From contig NZ_CP018632.1 in NCBI RefSeq assembly GCF_002215215.1, positions 452,001 through 516,000 of the forward strand: a stretch of 64,000 bases of DNA, written 5' to 3'. Of this stretch, positions 12,242-26,572 are shown one piece after another (position 1 is the stretch's first letter; every line of letters begins with the position of its first letter). The notes under the pieces were generated by a model. It saw nothing but the letters and a program-made list of their open reading frames with translations, was not told the origin of the DNA and ran no database searches. Source of the stretch: Granulosicoccus antarcticus IMCC3135 (GTDB taxonomy: Bacteria > Pseudomonadota > Gammaproteobacteria > Granulosicoccales > Granulosicoccaceae). The position numbers and the translations under genes were made by a program.

Positions 12242-13288
12242 GTGAGTTTTCCATCCATGTCTGAGTCCGAAAACAAGAAGAGCATCCTCGTTACCGGAGG
12301 TGCCGGCTACATTGGTAGTCATGTTGTCAAGTTACTGGGCGAGCGTGGTGAGCGAATCGTCGTGCTGGACAATCTGTCCACGGGCAACGAGGAAGCCGTG
12401 CTGTATGGCACTCTTGTCAAAGGCGATACCGGTGACGAAGCACTGGTGCGGCGTATTCTTGAAGAGCATGATGTTGACACAGTCATGCATTTTGCCGCAC
12501 ATACAATCGTGCCCGAAAGTGTTGAGAATCCGTTGAAGTACTATCGTAACAATACGGGCAATACGCTTAATTTGCTGCAGTGTTGTCAGGCGGCAGGTAT
12601 CGACAAGCTGATCTTCTCTTCCACGGCTGCTACCTATGGGATTCCTGAAGACGATACAAAACCGTGTTCAGAGGAATTGCCAACGGCGCCGATCAATCCT
12701 TATGGTATGTCAAAGCTGATGTCCGAGCATATGCTCAAGGATCTTAGCTATGCCACCGATTTACGCCATGTGATCTTGCGCTACTTCAATGTTGCTGGCT
12801 CGGATCCAGATGGTCGCATAGGGCAATCAACACACAATGCGACTCTGTTGATCAAAGTGGCTGCAGAAGTTGCGTTGGGTAAGCGCGAAAAGCTGCTTGT
12901 ATTTGGCACCGATTACGCCACGCCGGATGGTACGGGTATTCGCGATTACATTCATGTATCGGATCTTGCCAGTGCGCATCTGGCAGCGCTTGACTACTTG
13001 CGCAAGGGAGGGCAGTCGACTCTGGTTAATTGTGGTTATGGCAAAGGCTTCAGTGTACGGCAGGTTATTGATGCTACCTCCAGGCTTAATGGCGCACCGC
13101 TGAATGTAGAAGAACAACCACGACGGGCGGGAGATCCACCGGCATTGATTGCGGCAGTAGAAAAAATTCACAAGACACTGGATTGGCAGCCAAAGTTTGA
13201 TGATCTGGATGTGATCGTACAGACCTCATTGGACTGGGAGAAGAAGATTCTTGCCAAAACTGCTGAAAAACAAGCAGGAAACACCTGA
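12242..13288 (+). CDS. galE: UDP-sugar C4-epimerase of the pel cluster (GalE/PelX-like)
   Basis: A 348-residue extended SDR. It has an NAD-binding TGGAGYIGSH motif near residue 18, a Ser-Thr site (FSSTAATYG) and a catalytic NPYGMSK (YxxxK). It would interconvert UDP-glucose/galactose or the N-acetyl forms. Pel contains N-acetylgalactosamine, and in some species a linked epimerase (PelX) makes UDP-GalNAc, so its place as first gene of this pel operon suggests that role (inference). The start may be GTG 12242 or ATG 12257. PelC's start follows 63 bp after its stop. Confidence 0.88.
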   Translation: MSFPSMSESENKKSILVTGGAGYIGSHVVKLLGERGERIVVLDNLSTGNEEAVLYGTLVKGDTGDEALVRRILEEHDVDTVMHFAAHTIVPESVENPLKYYRNNTGNTLNLLQCCQAAGIDKLIFSSTAATYGIPEDDTKPCSEELPTAPINPYGMSKLMSEHMLKDLSYATDLRHVILRYFNVAGSDPDGRIGQSTHNATLLIKVAAEVALGKREKLLVFGTDYATPDGTGIRDYIHVSDLASAHLAALDYLRKGGQSTLVNCGYGKGFSVRQVIDATSRLNGAPLNVEEQPRRAGDPPALIAAVEKIHKTLDWQPKFDDLDVIVQTSLDWEKKILAKTAEKQAGNT

Positions 13289-13351: not shown

Positions 13352-13891
13352 ATGAAGCGATGCCTGGCGAGTCTGGCGGCGGGGCTGTTCATGGCGATAA
13401 GTGCCGGTTGTACTACCTTGACAAGTACTCCGGCTGTCAATGCAGATGCGGCGCAAAGCTGGGCTTTGCTGCCCATGAATAATCTGTCCGAGGCGCCACA
13501 GGCAGATAGTCAGGCGCTGACCATGCTGGAGACGCAATTGCGAACAAGGGGTGTGCGACAGGTCGCAGTCTATGCACCGATGCAAAAGGTCAGTCTGCGT
13601 ACTTTACTTGACCCTGCCAGGCAACTCAACGATGCCATGGAATGGGCCAGAAAAAATGGCTATCGCTATGGCTTTACCGGCACCATCAATGAGTGGAGTT
13701 ATCGTACAGGTGCCGACAAAGAGCCGGTTGTTGGCTTGAATATGAAGCTTGTAGACATCAGCACCGGTGAGGTTCTCTGGCAGGCCAATGCGGCGCGTAC
13801 CGGGTGGGGATATGCCAGCCTGCCAGCGTTGGCGGATACGGTTATAGACGATCTGCTTGAAGGCGTGCATTTCGATAACGTCAGCCACTGA
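13352..13891 (+). CDS. pelC: PelC, outer-membrane lipoprotein of Pel export
   Basis: Starting at ATG 13352 (GAGGG 7-11 bp upstream) gives 179 residues, close to the Pseudomonas protein. A basic-hydrophobic signal ends in a lipobox-like SAGC. The domain ends GYRYGFTGTINEWSY, then VGLNMKLVDISTGEVLWQAN and LADTVIDDLLEGV. In Pseudomonas PelC forms a dodecameric ring under the PelB porin that guides the cationic polymer outward. The ATG at 13292 would bury the signal peptide and is unlikely. A second copy of this fold seems to be fused to PelA. Confidence 0.85.
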   Translation: MKRCLASLAAGLFMAISAGCTTLTSTPAVNADAAQSWALLPMNNLSEAPQADSQALTMLETQLRTRGVRQVAVYAPMQKVSLRTLLDPARQLNDAMEWARKNGYRYGFTGTINEWSYRTGADKEPVVGLNMKLVDISTGEVLWQANAARTGWGYASLPALADTVIDDLLEGVHFDNVSH

Positions 13892-13906: not shown

Positions 13907-15301
13907 ATGAAGCAGATTCCAGGTAGGATATTGGCGCATTTCAGAATGCCCGGCGGGTCGACCCGTACGCGCATTATCGAGCTGGTCGTATTCGCCTGCT
14001 TGTTGCCGCTGGGTGGGCTGATGATGTTCGCAGAGGATCCCACTGGATTGCAGGCGGGCTTCCCCTGGGTAATGGCAGGCGCGCTGTTGTTTGCGGCTCG
14101 TTATGGCAGCCTTTGGGGCGTTGCTTGTGCAGTGATGACAGGTGTGTTCATTAATTTACCGATGTTCGCAGGCGCTCAGACAGGTACGCAGCTGGTGACT
14201 CTGTCGCTGGGTACTCTGGTCATGAGTCTGGTTGTGGGGGATGCGGCCTCAGCCTGGCGCAAACGCAGCAGGCAGTCGGAGGCAGAGAATCAATACTTGC
14301 GCCACAGACTTAAGGAATTCAGTACTGATTACCACGTGTTGAAAGTGTCTCATGGTCAGTTGGAAGAGCATATGGCAGGGCAACGCTTGAGTTTGCGTGA
14401 GGCACTGCAGCGACTCAAACCTGTGTTGTCTTCAGGAGACGATGGTTTGCAGGCAGGCAGCGAATTGATGGCGGTGTTTTCGCAGTTCTGTTCTATTCAG
14501 GTAGCAGGACTGTATGCGATGACCAGTGATAATCGTATTGACCCGAGACCTGTGGCTATTCATGGCGACATGTTTGATCTGCCAGTATTTGATCCGATTC
14601 TGCGAACTGCGATCAAAGCGCATGAACTGGTCAGTATCAAGCTGGAATCACTGGATGAAAAACATCACGAAAACAGCTTGCTGGCGGTTGTGCCTCTGGT
14701 TGATACAAACGGGCGTATGCATGGTGTGCTGGCTATCAAGGACATGCACTTCATGGCGTTTCAGCAGCAGAATCTGAATATTCTGGCGTTGTTGGGAAAC
14801 TATGTCGGCGACATGCTGACTCGCTCCAAGGGCACGGCTACCTCTCGTACCGATTGGTTCATGGCCGAGCTGGATATCGCACTCCGATTTGCTCAATCTC
14901 ATAATACGGAGTCGGTACTGATGTCGTTCAAGTTTGGTACTGAGGCTTCATCCATCGAGGTCGCCAGCTATGTCAGTACTTCGATCCGTAGTCTGGATGC
15001 ATCCTGGATGACGGTTGCTGAAGATGGGTCGACCGTGCTGTGTCTGCTCATGCCATTGATGAATAGAGAGCAGGGGGATGCCTTTCTGGCGCGTATCGAT
15101 AATGCCGTCAAGGAGAATTTCAAGGTCTCGTTTGACAGTCTCATCCAGGGCAGGCAGATCAAGTGCATTCAACAACACGATGATCGTTCACTGTGTATGG
15201 AGTTTCTGGGCAAGCATATCGGAATGGCGACGCTTGAGGCCGAGATGACACCTTCGAAAAACGCTAGTGACCTTCAGGGGAAACACTCTGATGTTGCCTA
15301 G
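13907..15301 (+). CDS. pelD: PelD, inner-membrane c-di-GMP receptor
   Basis: 464 residues (Pseudomonas PelD 455). N-terminal hydrophobic helices at about 23-115 are followed by a coiled segment, a GAF domain and a degenerate GGDEF domain. The inhibitory-site residues that bind c-di-GMP are preserved: R361-S-L-D364 (RxxD) and R396, a constant offset of 6 from R367, D370 and R402 of the Pseudomonas protein as I recall them. Pel synthesis here is therefore expected to be switched on allosterically by c-di-GMP. PelD assembles with PelE, PelF and PelG in the inner membrane. Confidence 0.9.
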   Translation: MKQIPGRILAHFRMPGGSTRTRIIELVVFACLLPLGGLMMFAEDPTGLQAGFPWVMAGALLFAARYGSLWGVACAVMTGVFINLPMFAGAQTGTQLVTLSLGTLVMSLVVGDAASAWRKRSRQSEAENQYLRHRLKEFSTDYHVLKVSHGQLEEHMAGQRLSLREALQRLKPVLSSGDDGLQAGSELMAVFSQFCSIQVAGLYAMTSDNRIDPRPVAIHGDMFDLPVFDPILRTAIKAHELVSIKLESLDEKHHENSLLAVVPLVDTNGRMHGVLAIKDMHFMAFQQQNLNILALLGNYVGDMLTRSKGTATSRTDWFMAELDIALRFAQSHNTESVLMSFKFGTEASSIEVASYVSTSIRSLDASWMTVAEDGSTVLCLLMPLMNREQGDAFLARIDNAVKENFKVSFDSLIQGRQIKCIQQHDDRSLCMEFLGKHIGMATLEAEMTPSKNASDLQGKHSDVA

Positions 15302-16295
15302 AGCGAGTTGGCGGGCGGGACTCTTGTTATCGGCACTGGGGCAAGCCCTGCTGCTGGTTGATCTGGTGTCGGCTCGTCAGTGGATGCCATCCAATCTGTC
15401 ATGGCTGATGCTGCATATGCTGCTGAGTCTGTCTGCCACGTTCTGTGTCGGCAAACTACTGCGAACGACAACGCAGGCGCGCAGTTTTCATGCATTGCTG
15501 TTTGCCATCATTCTGCTGATGCCGGTAGTCGGCGCTGTGGGTGGTGCTGCCGCCTTCTATCTGGGTGAGCGTTATTCACGGCTACGAAAACGAGAGCCGG
15601 ACTATTGGAATATTACCCGTCGCGCCGAGCTGCCTTTTACCACTCCTGTCGGGCGCAAGGCAACGACCGTTGATGGTCGTGGTTTTGAAGAGCATCTGAT
15701 GTACTCGGATAATGAGGAGGATCTTTACCGCAAGGTGCTTTCGGCGGGGAGCATTCAGGCTTCCTTGTCGGTCTCCACATTCAAGCAGGCCATGCGACAC
15801 AAGGATGAGCGCATTCGCCTTACAGCCTACAAGATGCTGGATCGTAAGGTCAGTGAGCTGAATCGACAGATCCAGCAACTCGAAGCACAGGTTGCCGAGG
15901 CTGAAGGGCGAGAAATGTCCAATGCCTGGTTGCAGATTGCAAGCAACTACTGGGAGCTGTTGACGCTGGAGAAAGGTGAGCCGATTGCCCGTCAGCAATT
16001 GCTGGACAAAGCCGGCAAGGCTGCCATTCAGGCTGTTGCCGCATTGCCCATTAATCGTAATGCGCATTTTGTGTTGGGCAGAGTCTCATTGCTACAAGGT
16101 GACACCCGGCGTGCCAACATTGCATTCAAACGTGCGCGGGCATTGGGCATGCCAGCTGACAAGGTAACGCCCTATCTGGCAGAGACAGCTTTCATGCTTC
16201 ATGACTTCAAGCAAGTGCGTGTACTTCTGCAGCAACTTGACCCGGCTATCAGAGCCTATCCACCGTTGTCTCATGTGGCGGAGTACTGGGCATGA
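15291..16295 (+). CDS. pelE: PelE, inner-membrane TPR protein of the Pel synthase complex
   Basis: Starting at ATG 15291 (AGGGGAA just upstream, 11-bp overlap with pelD) gives 334 residues; Pseudomonas PelE has 329. Two hydrophobic helices lie in the first 80 residues, then a cytoplasmic helical region with TPR-like repeats (AHFVLGRVSLLQGDTRRANI). It is thought to scaffold PelD and the glycosyltransferase PelF. The stop overlaps the pelF start by 4 bp (ATGA). Confidence 0.85.
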   Translation: MLPRASWRAGLLLSALGQALLLVDLVSARQWMPSNLSWLMLHMLLSLSATFCVGKLLRTTTQARSFHALLFAIILLMPVVGAVGGAAAFYLGERYSRLRKREPDYWNITRRAELPFTTPVGRKATTVDGRGFEEHLMYSDNEEDLYRKVLSAGSIQASLSVSTFKQAMRHKDERIRLTAYKMLDRKVSELNRQIQQLEAQVAEAEGREMSNAWLQIASNYWELLTLEKGEPIARQQLLDKAGKAAIQAVAALPINRNAHFVLGRVSLLQGDTRRANIAFKRARALGMPADKVTPYLAETAFMLHDFKQVRVLLQQLDPAIRAYPPLSHVAEYWA

Positions 16296-17920
16296 ATAGC
16301 TCGCCACATTATCACCCCGAAGCGCGGGCGGATGTCTGCCTGTTGCTGGAAGGCACATTCCCTTATGTACGTGGCGGTGTATCTACCTGGGTGAAGCAGA
16401 TGATTGAGGGCATGCCTCATTTGAGCTTCTCCATCATCTACCTGGGAGCCGAGGCCGCTTCTCAGGGAGAGCCTGCCTATGAGTTGCCGGATAATGTCGT
16501 GCATCTGGAAACGCACTGGTTACTGGAATCTGCCATACCGGAGCCAGTGGATAGCGGGGTGATTTCCAGGGTTCGAGGTTGGGCAAGAAAATCAGGTGAC
16601 AAGTTACGTAGTCGTCAACGCTTTATCGACAACAATGTCCTGCACTCGCAGCTGCGAGCGGCAGCCTCAGCTCCTCGAGGTCACACCTTGCGCAGTAACG
16701 TGGCTGCGCGTTTTACCGAGCTGCTGGTAGGGCCGGATGCGATTACAGAAGAGGAATTGCAGCAGGATAAAGATGCCTGGGAGACCATTCGAGAGAAGTA
16801 CAACGATGCGCCGCCGGGTCTGGATTTCAATCATTTTTTCTGGTCTGTCAGAAGTATGCACGGGCCTTTGTTCACTTTGGCAAAGATTGTCAGTGATGCT
16901 CCAGAGGCGGCACTGTATCACTCAGTGTCTACCGGCTATGCAGGCTTTCTTGGGGCCATGTTGAAGAATGCCACCGGTAAGCCGTTCATTATTTCAGAGC
17001 ATGGTATCTATACAAAGGAGAGAGAGCTTGACCTGGCGCAGGTGGAGTGGATACCGCAGGAGCTGGATCCGTTCAAGGTGGGTCTGAATGACAATATGAG
17101 TTATCTGCGTAGCGTATGGATCAGATTCTTCGCATCTCTGGGGCGCATGTCCTACGGGGCTGCAGATCAGGTTTTTACGCTATATGACGGTAACCGTCAG
17201 CGTCAGTTGCTGGATGGGGCGGATGATGTTCGCCTGTCAATTATTCCCAATGGTGTGAACGTGCAGCGATTCAGAACGGTGAGACGCTCCGAGCAGGCTG
17301 AAGTGCCGCCTGTACTGGCACTGATTGGTCGGGTGGTGCCCATCAAGGATATCAAGAACTTCATCAGAGCCATGCGCATCATTCGCTCGCGTATGCCAGA
17401 GGCGGAAGGCTGGTTGTTCGGTCCGGAGGATGAAGACGAGGACTACACCCGTGAATGCAAGATGTTGGTGGAGAGCCTGGGGCTGTCCCATGTCGTCAAG
17501 TTTCAGGGTTTTGGCAAACCCGATGAAATTTTCCCGCAGGTCGGTCTATCCATATTGACGTCGGTCTCGGAAGGTCAGCCACTGGTTGTGCTGGAAGGCT
17601 TTGCTGCCGGTATTCCCGCTGTGACGACTGATGTGGGTAGTTGCAGCGAGCTGATCTACGGCGTTGATGAGGAGGATCGCAAGCTGGGCGTGGCTGGAGC
17701 GGTGGTTCCCATCGCAGACCCGGCAGCGTTTGCCGACGCTGCCATTGCTCTGCTGTCCGATCGTGAAGCGTGGCTGCAGGCCAGTCGATCGGCCATTGCC
17801 CGAGTTGAATGCTACTACGATGAAGTGGACATGATTTCGCGCTATCAGACGGTCTATGAAAACCAGATCAACGGATCGCAGGGTGATCCGGTGGTTTCCA
17901 AACCCCCAAAGGCGGCTTGA
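16292..17920 (+). CDS. pelF: PelF, Pel polysaccharide glycosyltransferase (GT4)
   Basis: A 542-residue cytoplasmic glycosyltransferase. The N-terminus DVCLLLEGTFPYVRGGVSTW is the PelF hallmark. The C-terminal lobe has the GT4 EX7E motif (EGQPLVVLE) followed by GFAAGIPAVTTDVGSCSELI. It polymerises the Pel chain from UDP-sugars at the inner membrane with PelD, PelE and PelG. Coupled to pelE by overlap; pelG starts 3 bp after its stop. Confidence 0.93.
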   Translation: MNSSPHYHPEARADVCLLLEGTFPYVRGGVSTWVKQMIEGMPHLSFSIIYLGAEAASQGEPAYELPDNVVHLETHWLLESAIPEPVDSGVISRVRGWARKSGDKLRSRQRFIDNNVLHSQLRAAASAPRGHTLRSNVAARFTELLVGPDAITEEELQQDKDAWETIREKYNDAPPGLDFNHFFWSVRSMHGPLFTLAKIVSDAPEAALYHSVSTGYAGFLGAMLKNATGKPFIISEHGIYTKERELDLAQVEWIPQELDPFKVGLNDNMSYLRSVWIRFFASLGRMSYGAADQVFTLYDGNRQRQLLDGADDVRLSIIPNGVNVQRFRTVRRSEQAEVPPVLALIGRVVPIKDIKNFIRAMRIIRSRMPEAEGWLFGPEDEDEDYTRECKMLVESLGLSHVVKFQGFGKPDEIFPQVGLSILTSVSEGQPLVVLEGFAAGIPAVTTDVGSCSELIYGVDEEDRKLGVAGAVVPIADPAAFADAAIALLSDREAWLQASRSAIARVECYYDEVDMISRYQTVYENQINGSQGDPVVSKPPKAA

Positions 17921-17923
17921 ATC

Positions 17924-19327
17924 ATGGCAGGAATCGGCTTCGAACTACGCAAGTATCTGAATGATGATTCGTTTACAGGCACACTGAAAGCCTACGGCTT
18001 TGCCGGCCTGATCAGTGCCGGACCGTGGGTGCTGTCTATTGTCGGTGTCATGCTGATCGGAATTGTGGCTTTGACGCAACCGGTCATTGGTGAAGGTGGA
18101 GGTGCCGGTGTCAAACAGTTCACCACTTCGGTCACCTGGGTCATGGGGGCGTCGCTGGTATTGACTGGTTTGTTGCAGCTTGTCTTTACCCGCTTCGTTG
18201 CCGATCGCCTGTACGAGTTGCAGGACGACATTATCAATGCCAATCTGTTTGGCGCCATGGCGCTGACAACTCTGGTCAGCGGTGGTGCAGGGCTGGTGCT
18301 CGGATTTACGCTGTTTACTCAATCTTTTGCCTATGAGTTTCTGATGCTGGCCAATTTTGTCACGCTCAGTAATATATGGATTGTCGTTATTTTTGTCGCC
18401 GGACTCAAACGATTCAAACTGATTCTCTATGCATTCGGTGTGGGCTATGGCTCAACCATTATTCTGTCGATACTGCTGCTGCCCTTCGGTCTGATTGGAT
18501 TGTTGGCAGGTTTGCTGATGGGGCATGCCATTTTGCTGCTGATGATGGTAGGCGTGGTGCTACCGGAATATCCAGTGATATTCAAAGTGCGTTTTGATTT
18601 TTTGCAGCGACAGCTTATTTTTCCCAGCCTGATTGCCATCGGCTTTTTCTACAATCTGGGAATCTGGGTGGACAAGCTATTGTTCTGGCTCAATCCAGGG
18701 ACTTCAGAAGCCATGATCGGGCCACTGCGCACATCCCTGATCTACGATCTTCCCATCTTTCTGGCCTACCTCAGCATCATTCCGGGTATGGCGGTTTTTC
18801 TGCTGCGCATCGAAACAGATTTTGCTGAGGCCTACGAAGGATTCTTTGATGCCGTCAGAGGCAATGCGACGTTGCAGGAAATCGAGATGCTGGGCAATCA
18901 TATGGTCAGCGCAGTGCGCGAAGGACTGTTTCAGATTGTTCGTGTGCAGGGTGCAACCATTCTGGTGTTGTATCTGCTGGGGCCGACCATCATCAACTGG
19001 CTGGGTATCTCAGAGCAATACGTGCATCTGTATTACATAGACCTGGTAGGTGTAGGCGCCCAGGTTTTGATGCTGGCTGTGCTTAACGTGCTTTTCTATC
19101 TGGACAAGTTGCGTGATGCCTTGATACTGACGGCAACCTTGCTGGTCTCCAATGCGGTTCTGACCTGGATAACATTACAGCTCGGGCCCCAGTACTATGG
19201 ATACGGATTTGGCTTGTCCATGACAGTGACCGCTTTTATTGGAATCATTTTACTTTCACGGGAAATGGATAACATCGAGTTCAAGACATTCATGCGTTCG
19301 CGACCTTCACTGGAGGCTGCATCGTGA
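17924..19327 (+). CDS. pelG: PelG, inner-membrane Pel transport protein
   Basis: 467 residues with about 12 hydrophobic segments. The N-terminus MAGIGFELRKYL is nearly invariant in PelG, a polysaccharide-transporter/MATE-like protein thought to carry the growing chain across the inner membrane. Its stop overlaps the pelA start by 4 bp (ATGA-type), so pelF, pelG and pelA are tightly coupled. Confidence 0.92.
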   Translation: MAGIGFELRKYLNDDSFTGTLKAYGFAGLISAGPWVLSIVGVMLIGIVALTQPVIGEGGGAGVKQFTTSVTWVMGASLVLTGLLQLVFTRFVADRLYELQDDIINANLFGAMALTTLVSGGAGLVLGFTLFTQSFAYEFLMLANFVTLSNIWIVVIFVAGLKRFKLILYAFGVGYGSTIILSILLLPFGLIGLLAGLLMGHAILLLMMVGVVLPEYPVIFKVRFDFLQRQLIFPSLIAIGFFYNLGIWVDKLLFWLNPGTSEAMIGPLRTSLIYDLPIFLAYLSIIPGMAVFLLRIETDFAEAYEGFFDAVRGNATLQEIEMLGNHMVSAVREGLFQIVRVQGATILVLYLLGPTIINWLGISEQYVHLYYIDLVGVGAQVLMLAVLNVLFYLDKLRDALILTATLLVSNAVLTWITLQLGPQYYGYGFGLSMTVTAFIGIILLSREMDNIEFKTFMRSRPSLEAAS

Positions 19328-22300
19328 TGCGCTTGAATCGCGGCTTAGTGCACCGTTTGCTGATAATCGGTATCTTGCTGTTTGTCAGCGGGTGTCAGAG
19401 TTTATCTCATACTCAAGAGTCCTCATTCTCTTTGAATGACTCCTGGCAGCTTTCAGCGCTGCAAAATCGTAGTAACAGCGTCACTGCTGCTGAATCTGCT
19501 GATGCGATTCTGGCGATGCATTTGCGCAAGCGCGGTGTTGATTTTGCTCAGCTGTCGTCAGATACCGGCTATGTGGTGGAAGGGGCGGTGTCTCGTTGGC
19601 ACTATGCCGGTGGTACCAGTGCCAGGCCTGTGGCTCAGCTCCAGCTGGATGTTCGTGATGCGTTGACGGGGGATGTGGTCTGGTCAGATTCCGCCTCTGA
19701 TACGGGTCGACGAGGTCAGAGTCTCACCGCCTTGGCAGACGAGCTGATACAGACGCTGGTTGAGGGTATTCCCTTGAATGCCGGCAAGGCTGCATCTGCC
19801 TTGCCTGTGGGGATGGTCGCGGAAGCCTCTTCTGCGAAGGCCAGTGATGTTCCTTTGATTGGCGGTATGGCGCTTAAAGTTCAGGCCTCCTCGCTTAATA
19901 CCAAGGGCATGGCAAACGGGGAACCGTTGGAAGGTCGCAGCGTCGCTTTCTACTATGGTGCGCAACCACCGGTGGACATACTGTCGCAGTATGATCGCCT
20001 TGTTCTCGAGCCTGATAATATCAAGCCTGCCGATCTACGTGCCATGAGTGCACGCGGGGCACGTGCCTACGCCTATCTGAGTGTGGGTGAGGTGGGGCCG
20101 ACACGTGCTTATGCCCGTGATATGGAGCCTGCCTGGATACTGGGCAAGAACCCGGCTTGGGACAGCAATGTGCTTGATCTGGCGAACCCCTCTCTGCGGA
20201 AATTTCTGGTCAAGCGCGCCGGACAGTTGCAGTCAGATGGTTATGGTGGATTGTTTCTGGATACGATGGATAGCTTCAATCTGATTGCAGATACAGACGC
20301 TGAACGAGAGCGTCAGCAAGCAGGTCTGGTGAGTCTGATTGCAGAGTTTGCAAAAAATTTTCCAGAAATGAAAATCATCACGAATAGGGGCTTTGAAGTG
20401 ATGGACGATATAGCCGCTCATATTGAAGCGGTGGCCGCTGAGTCGTTGTATGCCAGCTGGAATAATGCAACACAGCAGTACACCAGCGTGCCACCGGGTG
20501 ATCGTGAGTGGTTGCTGTCGAAACTGAATCATGCGCGTGATGATCTGGATCTGGATGTCATTGCTATTGACTATCTGCCACCAGCACAGCGTGACAAGGC
20601 ACGCACGGTTGCTGCACGTATTGCCGAACACGGGTTTATTCCCTGGGTGGCTAATCCGGAGCTGGACTATATCGGCATTGGTGCGTTGGAAGTGCTGCCG
20701 CGCAAAGTGCTGATGATCTTTGATAGCACCAAGGATGGGCCGCTGGAAGAGAGCCCGGTGCACAAGTTCGTCGCCACGCCAGTGGAGTACATGGGGTATG
20801 TCCCTGAATATCTGGATGTGGGGCGAGAGCCCTGGCCGGCAGGTGAGCTGAAGGGGCGCTATGCGGGGATTGTCACGTGGGCAAGTCGTCAGTTCAAGGA
20901 TCTGGCAGCCAGGCCATGGTTACAGAAGCAACTGGATGACAAGGTACCCATGGCTTTCATGGTGATGCCACCGGTGCCGATGGACAGCCGCATGAGTGAG
21001 TCGCTGGGCATCAGTGTCGTTCAGGGGCTGGATGTGGATAGCGCACAGCTGGCCTACCGTGATGAATTCATTGCACCGGAGCGCAGCATGGGGCAGCGGA
21101 TTGACTCGTTTGGGTTGATGTCCGAAAGTATTGCTGCCAGCAATACCACTCATATGAGTTATGCAGACAAGAACGGCAAACGTGCCGATATCGTCGTCAC
21201 CGGTGAATTTGGTGGCTTTGCCTGGCAGCCGGGTTTGGTTGAGGATGGTCTGGACTATGAAACCTACTGGGTGGTGGATCCGTTCAAATTCCTGCGCGCG
21301 GCGCTGAAGCTTCCCAATGCTCCCATGCCGGATGTCACCACTGAAAGTGGCAAACGCTTGTGGATGGCACATATCGATGGTGATGCCTTGCCATCGTGGG
21401 CCGAGTTGCCCGGTGGTCGCCTGGGTGCCGAGATGATCTACCGCGATATCCTGACAAAGTATCCATTGCCGCATACGGTCTCGGTAGTCGAGGGCGAGAT
21501 GACTGAGTTTGATGCCTACGATGATCGTCGCCAGAGGATGTTCGATATCGCACGCAAGACCTTCAGGCTGGATCATGTTGAGCTGGCATCCCATACCTAT
21601 AGCCATCCTTTCAAGTGGGCCAAACTGAGCGAATACCGTAAATCCGGTAAATACAACCTGCCGATAGAAGGTTATGAATATACGTCGGAACGCGATATCG
21701 GTGGCTCGATTGATTTCATTAATCGCGAGCTGGCACCGCCCGGGAAAAAGCTTGAAGTCATGCTGTGGAGCGGCGATGCCTTGCCCTTGGCCAGTGATCT
21801 GGAGGTGTTGGAAAAACGCGATGTGCCTAATCTGAATGGAGGGCTGACCTATATCACCAACGCCCGCAATACGATGACGCTGGTCAGTCCGATGGCGCGC
21901 CCTGTGGGTAAATACCTGCAAGTTTATGCGCCAATCATGAATGAGAATATGTATACCAATGATTGGTTGGGACCATTCGATGGATTTAAACGAGCGATTG
22001 AAACATTCACTCTGACGGAGACTCCGCGACGATTGAAACCGTTGAATATCTATTATCACTTCTATTCAGGTACCAAAATTGCGGCTATCAAAGCATTGGA
22101 AGCGGTTTATGACTGGTCCACTGCTCAGGATATCTATCCTATCCATGTCAGTGACTATTCGCGCAAGGTGCCGGATTTTCGTAATGCAGGGGTGGCTCGC
22201 TATCTGGATGGACGCTGGAAGCTCAGTGGTCTGGGTGAGGTGCGTTCCATCCGCATGTTGGGCAAGGGAATGTGGCCTGAGCTTCAGGGAAGTGCAGGGC

Positions 22301-22635
22301 TTGCCGGAGCACGACAACTGCACGATGGTGTCTATGTTCATACCAATGGTGCGAGCCAGGTCAGTTTTTCTCTGAGTGACAAGCCGCCAAAGGCTGTGCA
22401 TCTGGTATCCAGTAATGGACGTGTACTGCGTTGGGATGAGCGCGGTGAGGCTCTGACACTGCGAATAAGTGCCGAAATGCCGGTGGTGGTCGAGCTGGGT
22501 GGAGGCATCAGTCGTAGCTGCGCTCTGCGAGTAGGCAAGCAATCAATTAGCGGACAGGCATCATCGAATAATACGGTGGTTTTCTCGTTTACAACAAGGG
22601 ATACAGGTGATGCAATCCTCAACTGCCCAGCGTGA
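19324..22635 (+). CDS. pelA: PelA, Pel deacetylase/hydrolase with an N-terminal PelC-like lipoprotein domain
   Basis: 1103 residues; Pseudomonas PelA has about 948. Residues 1-24 form a lipoprotein signal with a VSGC lipobox. Residues about 35-150 resemble PelC (SWQLSALQN; GYVVEGAVSRWHY; LQLDVRDALTGDVVW; LADELIQTLVEGI). The GH166-type hydrolase domain follows from about 195 (VAFYYGAQPP), with E373 the likely catalytic acid. The CE18 deacetylase domain has D685 and D687 (HIDGD) and H757/H761 (HTYSH), all offset by 157 from my memory of Pseudomonas D528, D530, H600 and H604. PelA deacetylates and trims periplasmic Pel; here it would be outer-membrane anchored. The start could also be the second Met. 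Confidence 0.92.
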   Translation: MMRLNRGLVHRLLIIGILLFVSGCQSLSHTQESSFSLNDSWQLSALQNRSNSVTAAESADAILAMHLRKRGVDFAQLSSDTGYVVEGAVSRWHYAGGTSARPVAQLQLDVRDALTGDVVWSDSASDTGRRGQSLTALADELIQTLVEGIPLNAGKAASALPVGMVAEASSAKASDVPLIGGMALKVQASSLNTKGMANGEPLEGRSVAFYYGAQPPVDILSQYDRLVLEPDNIKPADLRAMSARGARAYAYLSVGEVGPTRAYARDMEPAWILGKNPAWDSNVLDLANPSLRKFLVKRAGQLQSDGYGGLFLDTMDSFNLIADTDAERERQQAGLVSLIAEFAKNFPEMKIITNRGFEVMDDIAAHIEAVAAESLYASWNNATQQYTSVPPGDREWLLSKLNHARDDLDLDVIAIDYLPPAQRDKARTVAARIAEHGFIPWVANPELDYIGIGALEVLPRKVLMIFDSTKDGPLEESPVHKFVATPVEYMGYVPEYLDVGREPWPAGELKGRYAGIVTWASRQFKDLAARPWLQKQLDDKVPMAFMVMPPVPMDSRMSESLGISVVQGLDVDSAQLAYRDEFIAPERSMGQRIDSFGLMSESIAASNTTHMSYADKNGKRADIVVTGEFGGFAWQPGLVEDGLDYETYWVVDPFKFLRAALKLPNAPMPDVTTESGKRLWMAHIDGDALPSWAELPGGRLGAEMIYRDILTKYPLPHTVSVVEGEMTEFDAYDDRRQRMFDIARKTFRLDHVELASHTYSHPFKWAKLSEYRKSGKYNLPIEGYEYTSERDIGGSIDFINRELAPPGKKLEVMLWSGDALPLASDLEVLEKRDVPNLNGGLTYITNARNTMTLVSPMARPVGKYLQVYAPIMNENMYTNDWLGPFDGFKRAIETFTLTETPRRLKPLNIYYHFYSGTKIAAIKALEAVYDWSTAQDIYPIHVSDYSRKVPDFRNAGVARYLDGRWKLSGLGEVRSIRMLGKGMWPELQGSAGLAGARQLHDGVYVHTNGASQVSFSLSDKPPKAVHLVSSNGRVLRWDERGEALTLRISAEMPVVVELGGGISRSCALRVGKQSISGQASSNNTVVFSFTTRDTGDAILNCPA

Positions 22636-25600
22636 ACGATTAGTCAGTCCGCTGAGTCTGGCTTTGATGGCAGGCTTGTTCGGACTGGCTTTCTTCGTAC
22701 TCAAGCCAGATACAGTGCCGGGGCTGGATGTCTTTGGCAAGGCCGATGGCGTAGCCGGCAACGGTACGGATATCGATGAACTGACGCTGGCCTATTTACG
22801 AGCCCAGAGTGAATCTGGAAGAGTGAGCGAGAGCGAAATGCTCAGTGTGGTTGCACGACTGGTCAAGGTAGGGCGGTTGCAAGAGGCGCAAGAACTGCTG
22901 GCGCAGAATCCAAAGATTGACGTTGGCGAAGTGCTACGATTTGAAATTGATCTTGCCAGTGCTGCCGCCGATTCACCTGTCAGTCTTTCTACGGCCTTGA
23001 ACAAGCTGATTGAGTCGCCGTACCTGCATCAGACAACGCTGCTCAACAGGGGTGTTCTGCTAAGCAAGACTTTGCAGCAACCGCGCTTGAGCGCAAGTCT
23101 TTATGCGCTGTGGGCGGCTCAGACGGAACTCAGTGCTACGGGTGTGTCACGGTATATGGAGTGTTCACGCTATTTGAATGGTCTGGGTGAACGCACATTG
23201 GCGCTTGCTTGCCTGCAGCAGGCAAAAAAGATCGCTCAGAAGGGCGGTGATACTGTGCGGGTCAATCTGGCAATGCTGCCTTTGATTGATGCGGGCAGTG
23301 CACAGCAGAACAAGTTGACCGATGAGTTGCTCGACTTGGATGATCTGAGTACAACGCAAATTGAAAACGCAGCTCAGGTCTTGTTGCAGAATGGACGACC
23401 GGATGTCTCCTATCGTCTGTATGCCAGGCTTGCCATCAAGGAGCCTGACAAGGTCGCCGAATGGCTACCGCTGGCAGCCCGGTGGGCGCAGGCGGCAGGC
23501 AAACCTGCTGATGCAGCTGTCTTTCTTGATGCGCTGGCTAATGAGACAGGACTGGGTAAACCGGCCCCTGAAGAACGGCAGCGTTTACAGAAAGAAGTGG
23601 AGTCACTGTTGCTGGCGGCAGGGCGTACAAAGGATGTATATGCTCGCACGCAAGCACGTCTGCGAAAACTGCCGCAGGACGAAGCGGCTTTGCGAGAGGG
23701 TGTGATCATTGCCCGGCAATTAGGAGAATATTCGCAAGCTCTGTATTGGAATACACAGGTATTGTCGTTCAGCCCGAAGGATATGGAAGCGATGCGCTTG
23801 CAGCGCGAGCTGGCTCAGGCTGCCAGCAAGCTGCCATTAGCCTTGAGTTGGGCTGAGAAAGTGGTTCAGCAGCAGACCGCTTCGTTGGATGATCGGGAAA
23901 AGCTTGCGCGCATCAGTGAGTGGAGTGGCAAGCCGGATGAGGCATTGGAGCATTGGCAGTGGTTAGCGCAACCCGCCAGCAAGAAGACGCTGGATAATCG
24001 CATTAGAGCACTGCGTGAAGTGGTGCGCCTGGCCGAGTTGACCCTGCGTCCGGCTCAGGCTGCTAAAGCGTTGCGAGAAATCACGTTGTACGAAGAGCCG
24101 GGAAATGACGATATTGTCCGACTGGTTTCCTTATATGAGCTGGATGGCCGGCCCGAGGCTGCCTCGGTTGCGCTACAGGATATCATCGCGTTGTATGGCC
24201 CTCAGCCCTTTGTGCTGCGTACGTTGGCCTCAAATGAATTTCATCATAGTCGCTATGAGCAGAGTCTGGCTAGCTGGGAACTCTTTGCAGATAGTTTTGG
24301 CAGTAATACCGAATCTACGCTGGCACGTATGGAGCTGCTCTGGCAACTGGATCGCAAGGATGAAGCTGCCAATGTGGCCGAGTTGCTCAAAGGGCGTTCG
24401 CAGTTGTCCGGCGCGAATGATTATCAGCTTCGCCTGATGGCAGAAATTGGCTGGCAATATCGCAAGCCCTGGTTGACCATGTTGGTGAAGCCACGACTGA
24501 ATGCGCTGAATGAAGTTGGCCAACGATCCTATTATGGTCGTCGTTCGGTTGAACTGTTGCAAGAACAGGGCGAAGACAAAGAAGCCTTGATTGAAGCAAT
24601 GCAACTGTGGGGCAGCACTGGCAATGATGACTTTGCATTCATGGCCATGCAGTTGGCTGTCAAACTGGATGACAGGTCGGCGCAGGCGCGCTTCAGTCCT
24701 GAGCAGGAAGGTACAAAGTCGTTACAGGAGAGTGCATTCTATTGGGCGCAAGTGGGCGCCGATCGATTGCGAGAAGGTGACCAGCAAGGGGCAACAGAGG
24801 CTTATGAGCGAGCATTGAGGCTGGATGAAGCGCATGTGGAATCCATCTCCGGGCTGATCTGGATGGCCATTGGTGATCAGGATGATTCGCGCACCCATTT
24901 TCTGCTCAATAAATATCAGGGCATGGCGGCAGAAACACCGGCTCTGTGGCAGGCCATGGCTCTGGGATATCTGCAGATGGGAGCTGCTGCTTCAAGCTTG
25001 CCGTGGTTTGATCGGATGCTGGATCAGATCAGTGCCGACTATGGCATGCTGCTGACCTACGCCGATGCACTGGAATATGCAGGGCGTAGTGCCAGTGCTT
25101 TCAAGGTTCGTCAATATACGCTGCAACAACTCAGACCGCTGCTGGTCGAGGGCTCAGTGAATGAACAGGCCTTGCTGCTACGACAGTACAGTCGCTTGTC
25201 AGTTCGCTATGCAGGAGTCGAGTCCAATGAACAGTTGTTCAACCATCTGCTGAAAACCGATGCGCAAGAATCGCCTTCGGGGCAGGATGATCTATGGCGT
25301 CAGGACATGGCCATTTCCTGGTTGATGTCAACGCAACAGTTTGAACATGCAAGGCTGATCATGGCGCAGATACACCATCGCCGTTTGCAGGCACCTGCCT
25401 GGCAGCAAGTTGCTCTGGCATTGAAAGATGATGACGAGGCTGCGCTGAGCAGTCTGGTACAGGCGAAAGGGCCATTGTCCGTGGGTAATCATATTCTCGC
25501 CTTGCGTCAGTTGGGTAATGATCGGGATGCTTATGCCTTGGTGCAGAAAGTCATGAGCCCGGGTGCACCACTGGCAGGTTCAAATCTTGATGATCTACAG

Positions 25601-26572
25601 CTGGCCCAGGAGCAGTACGTGTCACTGCGTGATGCGCGACCAGGTTTTGTTGCCGCTTTTGCAGGCCTGCGCAATTCGGGCAAGCTTAATATACGAGAAA
25701 CCGGTGTTCGTATCAGGCACACATTCTCCGATAGCAATCTGGGGATGTCTCTGGATCTGACCAAGCGTCAACTGGATTCAGATCGGTATGACATTGAAGA
25801 GCGGGACGAGCTGTCTGATGTTGCTCTGTCCCTGTTTTTTGGAACTGCGCGACAGGGCGGGCGTTTGACGACCGGATATCTGGACGCCGAGGATGGAGAT
25901 CTGTTTTATGGCAGTGCCAGTTATGCCAGGCGCCTGGCCAACAAACGCAGCAGGATTTCTACTGAGCTTGCCTATAACGAGGAGGTCAGCTTGTCGCCAG
26001 AGCTTCTGATCGGGGCCAGGCAGCATCGATTCACGATTGGCTACGATGCGGACATCGGGCATCTGGAATTTATCCGGGTGCAGGCAGATGCAACCGAGAT
26101 CAATACACGGGTTGAGCAGAACAAGGTAGCACGTGGGTTAGGCGGTAGCGTGGAACTGGGTGTGCGTGGCAGTTTTGGTAGTAATGCCTGGTCCACCAGT
26201 GTCAGAGCGGCTCATGCTGAGCGAGATCGTGAGCAGCGCTTGCCGGCAGAGCTGCGTTTTTCGCGAGGCAGTACCATGGATGATGTGTTAGCGGCGCAGG
26301 CACAAAGCGTGTCGATTGGCGCCTCTTTGTCACGTGGTGGAATCAATGCAGACTTTCCGCAGGTGAGTTCTCCTCGCTATTATCTGAGTGCCAACCTGGG
26401 CCACAACTGGCCAGATCGGGTTATCGGATTTCAGATGGGGGCCGGAGCAGGAATTCGAGTGCTGGGAGGCGATGAGCTGAGTTTCTCGGTATCGCATGAT
26501 ACTCAGCCTACGGTCACTAATTCTGGTGATGCGACAGCTGTGGGTATCAGCTATCGCTATCACTTTCAGTAA
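22607..26572 (+). CDS. pelB: PelB, TPR-rich outer-membrane export porin of Pel
   Basis: 1321 residues (Pseudomonas PelB 1193). It has an N-terminal transmembrane helix (LALMAGLFGLAFFVL), a very long periplasmic superhelix of TPR units at about 50-1000 (for example QQGATEAYERALRLDEAHVE), and a C-terminal beta-barrel of about 300 residues with alternating strands ending in aromatic YRYHFQ. PelB recruits PelA through its TPRs and secretes the deacetylated polymer. It overlaps pelA by 29 bp and is the last gene of the operon. Confidence 0.9.
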   Translation: MMQSSTAQRERLVSPLSLALMAGLFGLAFFVLKPDTVPGLDVFGKADGVAGNGTDIDELTLAYLRAQSESGRVSESEMLSVVARLVKVGRLQEAQELLAQNPKIDVGEVLRFEIDLASAAADSPVSLSTALNKLIESPYLHQTTLLNRGVLLSKTLQQPRLSASLYALWAAQTELSATGVSRYMECSRYLNGLGERTLALACLQQAKKIAQKGGDTVRVNLAMLPLIDAGSAQQNKLTDELLDLDDLSTTQIENAAQVLLQNGRPDVSYRLYARLAIKEPDKVAEWLPLAARWAQAAGKPADAAVFLDALANETGLGKPAPEERQRLQKEVESLLLAAGRTKDVYARTQARLRKLPQDEAALREGVIIARQLGEYSQALYWNTQVLSFSPKDMEAMRLQRELAQAASKLPLALSWAEKVVQQQTASLDDREKLARISEWSGKPDEALEHWQWLAQPASKKTLDNRIRALREVVRLAELTLRPAQAAKALREITLYEEPGNDDIVRLVSLYELDGRPEAASVALQDIIALYGPQPFVLRTLASNEFHHSRYEQSLASWELFADSFGSNTESTLARMELLWQLDRKDEAANVAELLKGRSQLSGANDYQLRLMAEIGWQYRKPWLTMLVKPRLNALNEVGQRSYYGRRSVELLQEQGEDKEALIEAMQLWGSTGNDDFAFMAMQLAVKLDDRSAQARFSPEQEGTKSLQESAFYWAQVGADRLREGDQQGATEAYERALRLDEAHVESISGLIWMAIGDQDDSRTHFLLNKYQGMAAETPALWQAMALGYLQMGAAASSLPWFDRMLDQISADYGMLLTYADALEYAGRSASAFKVRQYTLQQLRPLLVEGSVNEQALLLRQYSRLSVRYAGVESNEQLFNHLLKTDAQESPSGQDDLWRQDMAISWLMSTQQFEHARLIMAQIHHRRLQAPAWQQVALALKDDDEAALSSLVQAKGPLSVGNHILALRQLGNDRDAYALVQKVMSPGAPLAGSNLDDLQLAQEQYVSLRDARPGFVAAFAGLRNSGKLNIRETGVRIRHTFSDSNLGMSLDLTKRQLDSDRYDIEERDELSDVALSLFFGTARQGGRLTTGYLDAEDGDLFYGSASYARRLANKRSRISTELAYNEEVSLSPELLIGARQHRFTIGYDADIGHLEFIRVQADATEINTRVEQNKVARGLGGSVELGVRGSFGSNAWSTSVRAAHAERDREQRLPAELRFSRGSTMDDVLAAQAQSVSIGASLSRGGINADFPQVSSPRYYLSANLGHNWPDRVIGFQMGAGAGIRVLGGDELSFSVSHDTQPTVTNSGDATAVGISYRYHFQ

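Follow-up and report, generated by a model that had tools for sequence, protein, structure and literature searches.

A PelC-like lipoprotein domain at the front of PelA in Granulosicoccus antarcticus and its relatives

Introduction

The pel operon of Granulosicoccus antarcticus IMCC3135 lies within the stretch of 64,000 nucleotides analyzed here (the window; contig NZ_CP018632.1, positions 452,001 to 516,000) and raises a question about pelA, the gene for the Pel deacetylase/hydrolase: why does its product begin with what looks like a second copy of PelC, the lipoprotein that forms a ring around the exporter PelB, and what would such a fusion do? An earlier note, made from the sequence of the window, had proposed that the extra part anchors PelA to the outer membrane and might mix it into the PelC ring.

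The question touches a published disagreement, for which we, as for all papers cited by PMC number, draw on excerpts. The need for a ring of twelve PelC in Pel export has been called puzzling, with the positioning of PelA by PelC as one option, and a model bringing PelA into contact with PelC subunit K was offered together with a call for tests (PMC12141448). From the model presented with the PelA structure, its authors conclude that PelA and PelC do not interact, and Pseudomonas PelA is described as reaching the outer membrane via tetratricopeptide repeats (TPRs) 9-14 of PelB (PMC12022489). A natural fusion of the two proteins bears on the difference between these accounts.

Results

Sequence and structure of the N-terminal domain

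The gene and the parts of its product on which the argument turns are listed below, with residues numbered from the ATG at 19327.

19324..22635, + strand: pelA, N-terminally fused form, 1102-1103 amino acids (open reading frame; fold match to PelA 9cgy, E 8.1e-89)
19312..19316, + strand: Shine-Dalgarno-like GGAGG of pelA (read from the sequence by eye)
19327..19395, + strand: predicted lipoprotein signal peptide (residues 1-22) followed by the lipid-attachment residue, Cys23 (VSGC) (sequence; Cys aligned in relatives)
19411..19779, + strand: PelC-like domain, residues about 29-151 (blastp, phmmer, profile-profile comparison, predicted fold)
19606..19629, + strand: equivalent of the PelC D-loop, residues 94-101, AGGTSARP (alignment; Ser98 at the Asp119 site, Arg100 at the Glu121 site)
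19708..19710, + strand: Arg128 at the PelC Trp149 site (alignment)
19786..19917, + strand: flexible linker, residues 154-197 (AlphaFold2 predicted local distance difference test, pLDDT, <50)
19957..20664, + strand: glycoside hydrolase domain (Pfam GH114 match), residues 211-446 (E 2.5e-19)
21376..21606, + strand: deacetylase (CE21) residues Asp684, Asp686, His756 and His760 (alignment to the numbering of PMC12022489)

The N-terminal domain of PelA (PelA-N) is a homologue of PelC with a lipoprotein signal. The earlier note had recognized it from three matching segments of PelA and PelC; these are real, and all fall inside one blastp alignment of PelA-N with the PelC of the same operon (E 8e-18 in this single comparison, 29% identity, 165 columns). 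When the whole genome was searched with PelA, the operon's PelC was the only other match (E 3.2e-8). Searched with phmmer against the PDB sequences, PelA-N found PelC on top (9h80_C 3.6e-13, 5t0z 6.5e-9, 5t11 5.3e-8, 5t10 6.1e-8), the next match standing only at 0.3, and a profile search against PelC, which the note had recommended, joined 17 PelA-N to 28 PelC with a probability of 99.9 and E 1.5e-34 over 138 columns. Among the curated Pfam cut-offs, none was reached by PelA-N (DUF4136 scored 19 bits vs 32.8 required); the window's separate PelC exceeds the cut-off of Pfam LpoB (26.2 vs 22.3).

Structure prediction, likewise recommended at the outset, yielded the PelC fold. The alignment given to AlphaFold2 was limited to PelA-N sequences, so that PelC could not impose its fold, and the resulting model (pLDDT 88.3, predicted template modeling score 0.80) retrieved PelC chains at all of Foldseek ranks 1-19 (best 9h80_A, E 1.6e-11), ahead of GNA1162 (4.1e-7) as the first match of another kind. 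VIA-align gave Z 16.5-17.1 against four PelC entries, with CsgG the next family at 12.6, and a root-mean-square deviation of 1.9 over 123 residues against 9h80_A. Below PelC, the list holds CsgG, TraT, LptE, PqiC and other lipoproteins, which we read as the sign of a common fold; weaker matches include HpaA and a homologue named neuraminyllactose-binding hemagglutinin (3bgh E 2.7e-4; 8t8d Z 9.4).

Two candidate starts, GTG 19324 and ATG 19327, follow the GGAGG at spacings that we read by eye as 7 and 10 nucleotides, respectively. The signal ends in LLFVSGC23QS, and the lipobox Cys that the earlier note had seen here is aligned in all 19 PelA-N sequences, 15 of which match the strict pattern [LVI][ASTVI][GAS]C while the other four differ at -3. 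An Asp at +2 is the usual signal for retention at the inner membrane; that residue is Gln in the window and is Asp in 0/19 of the aligned PelA-N. The Cys and the residue that follows it thus suggest that PelA here is probably anchored in the outer membrane, in line with this part of the original proposal. A start of translation beyond residue 160, which would have undone that proposal, is excluded within the limits of sequence evidence, because the frame, the lipobox Cys and the domain are all preserved in the PelA of 18 relatives; the ratios of nonsynonymous to synonymous substitution (dN/dS) given below also speak against a late start.

Behind the domain comes a linker of 44 residues, disordered in the model (mature 132-175, precursor 154-197); measured by profile borders, its length in 18 fused PelA is 52-78 amino acids. 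The model of the whole mature PelA (pLDDT 89.3) has PelA 9cgy as its best fold match (E 8.1e-89, TM by target 0.92), the hydrolase part matches 5tcb (E 2.2e-27), and the protein beyond the linker is, as modeled, an ordinary four-domain PelA. The deacetylase residues of Pseudomonas PelA, Asp528, Asp530, His600 and His604 (PMC12022489), recur with a constant shift of +156 counted from the ATG and +157 from the GTG, so that the residues 685, 687, 757 and 761 and the shift of 157 given in the earlier note are correct when counted from the GTG. The deacetylase retains its full set of metal and catalytic-base residues. Relative to the 948 residues of Pseudomonas PelA, the excess of about 155 residues reported previously corresponds to the lipobox, the PelC-like domain and the linker.

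Residues kept and lost

Comparison of PelA-N with PelC, in Pseudomonas PelC numbering, suggests what has become of the ancestral surface. We called a column conserved when one residue filled at least 85% of 40 PelC sequences, which gave 32 columns, and scored it as kept in PelA-N at 13 or more of 19 and as lost at two or fewer; 18 columns are kept, five are intermediate and nine are lost. Kept residues include Cys19 (19 of 19), Trp36 (17), Asn43 (17), Ala50 (19), Leu62 (19), Gly66 (18), Gly107 (18), Trp112 (19), Asp132 (18), Trp140 (17) and Gly148 (17). The losses comprise Pro48 (1/19), Trp95 (0/19), Lys115 (0/19), Val138 (2/19), Glu111 (1/19; Arg in 9, Arg or Lys in 10) and Gly150 (1/19; Arg in 9), together with three residues of particular weight: Asp119 (0/19, where 39/40 PelC have Asp or Glu), Glu121 (0/19, replaced by Arg or Lys in 15) and Trp149 (0/19, with Arg or Lys in 10; Trp in 36/40 PelC). 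In an overlapping set of 49 PelC, Asp stands at 119 in 46 and Trp at 149 in all 49. The mean charge of the D-loop is +1.1 in PelA-N vs -0.5 in PelC.

A further change, overlooked in the earlier note, concerns a region between the first helix and the second strand, where about 25 residues are missing from PelA-N at the site of the PelC capping loop-helix. Between the Gly66 and Tyr103 columns the window's PelA-N has 11 residues vs 36-42 in 41 PelC; across relatives the number is 11-25 in 17/19 PelA-N and 40-41 in the remaining two (G042 and G005). One more PelA-N outside the 19 aligned (G027), inspected by eye, has neither Asp119 nor Trp149, yet its cap region is long.

The roles of these sites are known from the PelBC structure, in which Asp119 of PelC docks onto PelB arginines, Trp149 clamps acyl anchors, with PelC being lost from PelBC in the Pseudomonas W149A mutant, and the capping loop-helix (residues 70-98) covers the PelC subunit beneath (PMC12141448). 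With positions 119, 121 and 149 changed and the cap shortened in 17/19, we conclude from the alignments that the fold is retained in PelA-N while much of its predicted ring-seating surface is gone. Among outgroup PelC, those of G194, G253, G308 and G402 also lack Trp149, which shows that not every PelC has this anchor clamp.

Distribution and origin

A match was present in 37/48 Granulosicoccaceae genomes. Twenty carry a fused PelA (the 19 aligned and G027, also sampled as L150, which was found fused by two scans) and 12 an unfused one, the five others (G007, G013, G028, G040 and G041) being left out since the N-terminus of their PelA is not visible; G030 was counted as fused with PelA-N at a contig end and the core on another contig, and the PelA of G033 and of G003 break off within the core. 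The 12 unfused proteins begin with a Sec-type signal, judged by eye, and of 10 unfused family PelA three have a Cys under a loose lipobox pattern, none at the place of the strict pattern.

Outside the family, the fusion was seen in 0/9 operons of the class sample and in 0/25 PelA with a visible upstream frame (among 26 that retained most of the core), two sets that share at least one genome (G270, also L134). Among the 369 genomes of the class sample, PelA matches beginning in the N-terminal part come from two family members only, and a scan of genome contigs with 75 loci returned 16 with PelA-N, all from Granulosicoccus or Granulosicoccaceae. In the phylum sample a PelC profile matched 37/398 genomes and, beyond the window's PelA, one match lay in a frame longer than 800 amino acids (G601), which we rejected: the open frame there is GC-rich and ends in an ordinary PelC. 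The survey of relatives' PelA envisaged in the earlier note thus places the fusion, as far as sampled, in Granulosicoccaceae alone.

Several further architectures came to light in these scans. Long frames in G580, G506, G536 and G541 belong to other proteins, not PelA, and a frame of 1311 amino acids in L133 that resembled a PelB-PelC fusion is a GC-rich stop-free frame near whose end PelC begins. Outside the family, the unfused PelA that we read likewise start with Sec-type signals, except that a LAAC in L147 may be a lipobox; an LASC in L129 and L130 precedes the likely PelA start. In the same two loci, which are from Nitrosomonas, a full PelA is directly preceded by a distinct hydrolase-like frame (279 and 350 amino acids). 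In L153-L164 and L174 (mostly Thiotrichaceae, Leucothrix and Cocleimonas), frames of ~390-450 amino acids match the hydrolase half of PelA alone, with no PelC found in the available stretches around them. A further group in the phylum, L178-L181, has a PelC/TolB-like N-terminal domain ahead of repeats that we classed by eye as fibronectin-like and beta-helix; a lipobox is present in some.

When 40 PelC, Pseudomonas PelC and 19 PelA-N were placed in one tree, the PelA-N grouped as a single clade (100/98) adjacent to the PelC of the family (98/95), its stem being long at 0.89 changes per column. One clade beside the family PelC argues for a single origin from a PelC duplicate, and we regard it as firm, on these trees, that the fusion arose once. 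The later history is less straightforward: the PelA-core tree has the unfused family members as a clade (99/98) that emerges from within the fused ones, but a constraint holding the fused together is not rejected (P value of the approximately unbiased test, p-AU, 0.23); a concatenated tree gives the same nesting (p-AU 0.316 for the fused held together, in a test that counted G013 as unfused though its pelA is not on the contig); and in the PelC tree the unfused clade and the fused members stand side by side. We favor a later loss of the fusion in the unfused clade.

PelA-N has evolved faster than PelC. Over 171 genome pairs its mean identity is 31% vs 49% for PelC, and is the lower of the two in 170. 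Rough dN/dS values, with dS mostly near or above 1 and PelA-N incomputable in three of eight pairs, are 0.12-0.30 for PelA-N in the other five and 0.05-0.11 for PelC in 7/8 pairs, which indicates that PelA-N is still under purifying selection.

The surrounding operon

The other genes of the window's pel operon are as follows.

13352..13891, + strand: pelC, for the separate ring lipoprotein; equivalents of Asp119 and Trp149 present (homology, alignment)
13907..15301, + strand: pelD (Pfam PelD_GGDEF 2.9e-13)
15267..16295, + strand: putative pelE (position alone; no family model at cut-off)
16292..17920, + strand: pelF (NCBIfam PelF 3.6e-189)
17924..19327, + strand: pelG, overlapping the start of pelA (Pfam PelG 1.1e-141)
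22607..26572, + strand: pelB, TPR and beta-barrel porin (Pfam PelB_C 1.8e-56; TPR matches too)

Within the reach of their contigs, the fused genomes share the order (galE) pelC D E F G A B, and nine class outgroups have pelA B C D and on. A separate pelC is retained in all 19 fused genomes mapped, on another contig in G003. We considered the position of pelC several kilobases before pelA as a peculiarity of the family and rejected it, the same being found in the outsiders L127-L130 and L149.

A gene for a GalE-type epimerase (window 12242-13288, NCBIfam galE 4.4e-136), which may supply UDP-GalNAc, stands just upstream of pelC. It does so in 17/19 fused genomes, a count confounded by common descent, and none was found in the available stretch of 10 unfused family operons, one of which extends just 0.4 kb upstream.

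The separate PelC of fused genomes differs from that of unfused ones in its D-loop. Position 118 is Ala, Pro or Thr and 120 is Lys or Arg in the 19 fused genomes; the unfused PelC (10 from the family, a set that omits G013, and nine from outgroups; 11 and 24 in an overlapping set) have Leu, Val or Ile (one Thr) at 118 and Asn, Gly or Ser at 120. Clade-specific columns between fused and unfused number 4/159 in PelC (2.5%) vs 0.4-5.2% in other Pel proteins, and three of the four lie within 110-120. The difference at 118 and 120, which was spotted post hoc and rests on one or two evolutionary events, is a lead only towards possible co-evolution with the fusion.

Discussion

Our findings lead us to lean, with modest confidence, towards reading PelA-N as a repurposed PelC paralogue that would hold PelA next to the PelBC portal by an outer-membrane anchor. 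We propose that the Pel deacetylase/hydrolase gained a PelC duplicate at its N-terminus in a single event early in the history of Granulosicoccaceae, and that PelA would be exported, lipidated at Cys23 and most likely sorted to the outer membrane, where the PelC-like globule would sit on its acyl anchor at the inner face and the flexible linker would bear the four-domain enzyme. As the window's PelB has both TPR and barrel matches, the anchor would probably add to the TPR-based recruitment known in Pseudomonas, keeping PelA permanently at the PelB-PelC portal. PelA-N would most likely dock beside the ring, or within it by other contacts, rather than take the place of an ordinary subunit. That a PelC paralogue and PelA are one polypeptide argues for proximity to PelC and PelB in the Rosetta-stone sense, the altered and partly charge-reversed surface for changed rather than absent contacts, and the fast evolution for fewer constraints. 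The gene, its lipobox, the homology, the predicted fold, the single origin, the retained separate PelC and the systematic residue changes are what the data show; from these we infer lipidation, location at the outer membrane, docking at PelBC and a gain in the efficiency of processing.

Several points weigh against this proposal. Fast evolution of PelA-N is what would be expected if few contacts constrained the domain, and its absence from 12 family members, in 10 of which the surrounding pel operon was mapped, implies that the pathway can dispense with it. PelA-N and PelC carry similar net charges over the full domain (mean -0.9 vs -1.1), and some of the lost columns, such as Pro48 and Val138, are ones that we could not link to ring seating. 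Docking at PelBC is, moreover, a deduction from the fusion and the homology.

As a rival explanation, PelA-N could be a tether and spacer with no specific contact to PelC or PelB, the lipid and linker being what matters, which we hold to be possible but doubtful. The PelB- and ring-facing residues are gone, the domain evolves fast with dN/dS above that of PelC, and the linker is long and variable. A bare lipobox would suffice for such a task, however, yet a full PelC fold appears to be held under purifying selection across the fused members, and the losses to Arg or Lys (Glu121 in 15/19, Glu111 and Trp149 in 10/19 each) look selected.

PelA-N is unlikely to be an ordinary ring subunit in one or several of the twelve PelC positions, and the mixing into the ring that the earlier note had entertained is not supported as it was put. 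The fold is the same (Z up to 17.1), operon and presumed membrane address are shared, and the ring is asymmetric around PelB, so that one odd seat is conceivable (PMC12141448); the four outgroup PelC without Trp149 also show that its loss alone is not decisive. Nevertheless, Asp119 and Trp149 are missing in 19/19 PelA-N, the cap is shorter in 17/19, and in Pseudomonas W149A by itself removes PelC from PelBC (PMC12141448).

We consider it very improbable that the main task of PelA-N is to bind the Pel chain or to regulate the enzyme, with proximity to the ring secondary. The initial proposal for PelC was that it serves as an electrostatic funnel for Pel (cited in PMC12141448), the charge of the D-loop is altered in PelA-N, and HpaA and the hemagglutinin-named homologue occur among the weaker fold matches. 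A more basic loop should, however, repel cationic Pel, the matches named for sugar binding rank far under PelC in a fold common to many of the lipoproteins listed, and the linker leaves PelA-N free of the enzyme. That the domain is an artefact of a wrong start codon or of chance resemblance has a negligible chance, since we found nothing in its favor and the GGAGG, the blastp and profile matches, the frame conserved in relatives and the dN/dS values speak against it.

We tentatively raise a bolder reading that we think more likely wrong than right: PelA-N may be a specialized portal seat with new, partly charge-reversed contacts that builds or clips one PelA onto the PelBC ring, its partner PelC having co-evolved. 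If so, holding PelA would be an ancestral role of the PelC ring, which would help to explain why Pel, unlike cellulose or poly-N-acetylglucosamine (PNAG) export, needs a ring.

A search of the literature over titles and abstract openings, and of the excerpted text of PMC7112194 and PMC7112168, returned no description of a PelC-PelA fusion, and the fused PelA, of single origin and, as far as sampled, lineage-restricted, is a new form of PelA. The genus Granulosicoccus is a dominant, clustered member of biofilms on kelp blades (PMC8944128), a habit that would fit a use for Pel. Granulosicoccaceae offer a natural experiment on whether PelA and PelC meet, with unfused relatives as controls, and the fusion may be read as a natural clue that PelA works right at the exit gate of the outer membrane.

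Set beside known systems, the PelA of the window differs from that of Pseudomonas in being predicted to carry a lipid, which the latter is not known to have. It is like the PelA of P. aeruginosa and P. thermotolerans (9CGY; CE21 deacetylase and GalNAc hydrolase) in its four domains, its catalytic Asp/His set and the adjoining pelB; unlike the Pseudomonas protein, which begins with a signal sequence (PMC12022489), it has a lipobox, a PelC-like domain and a linker. With PelC (9H80, 5T0Z, 5T10, 5T11) it shares a lipobox Cys followed by the PelC fold and a core of Trp36, Asn43, Ala50, Leu62, Gly66, Gly107, Trp112, Trp140 and Gly148, whereas PelA-N is part of PelA, is without Asp119 and Trp149, mostly has Arg or Lys in place of Glu121 and is short in the cap in 17/19. 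We know of no PelC-like domain in PgaB, to which a predicted lipid-anchored dual deacetylase/hydrolase is nonetheless a parallel, the evidence for a PgaB-like anchor here being the lipobox and the non-Asp residue at +2. PgaB is an outer-membrane lipoprotein that deacetylates and hydrolyzes PNAG and works with a TPR-porin, a likeness that is functional only (PMC9384988). In the window's PelA the hydrolase (211-446) precedes the deacetylase residues (684-760), unlike in PgaB, and the polymer differs; it would work like PgaB and is not a PgaB member. Finally, fusions within synthase-dependent machines are known from BcsZC, BcsAB and GT-PgaB, described along with rearrangements of pel and fission of pelB (PMC7112194). 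Those fusions join whole components or add a glycosyltransferase (GT) domain (PMC7112194), whereas here a duplicated paralogue has been fused and the original kept.

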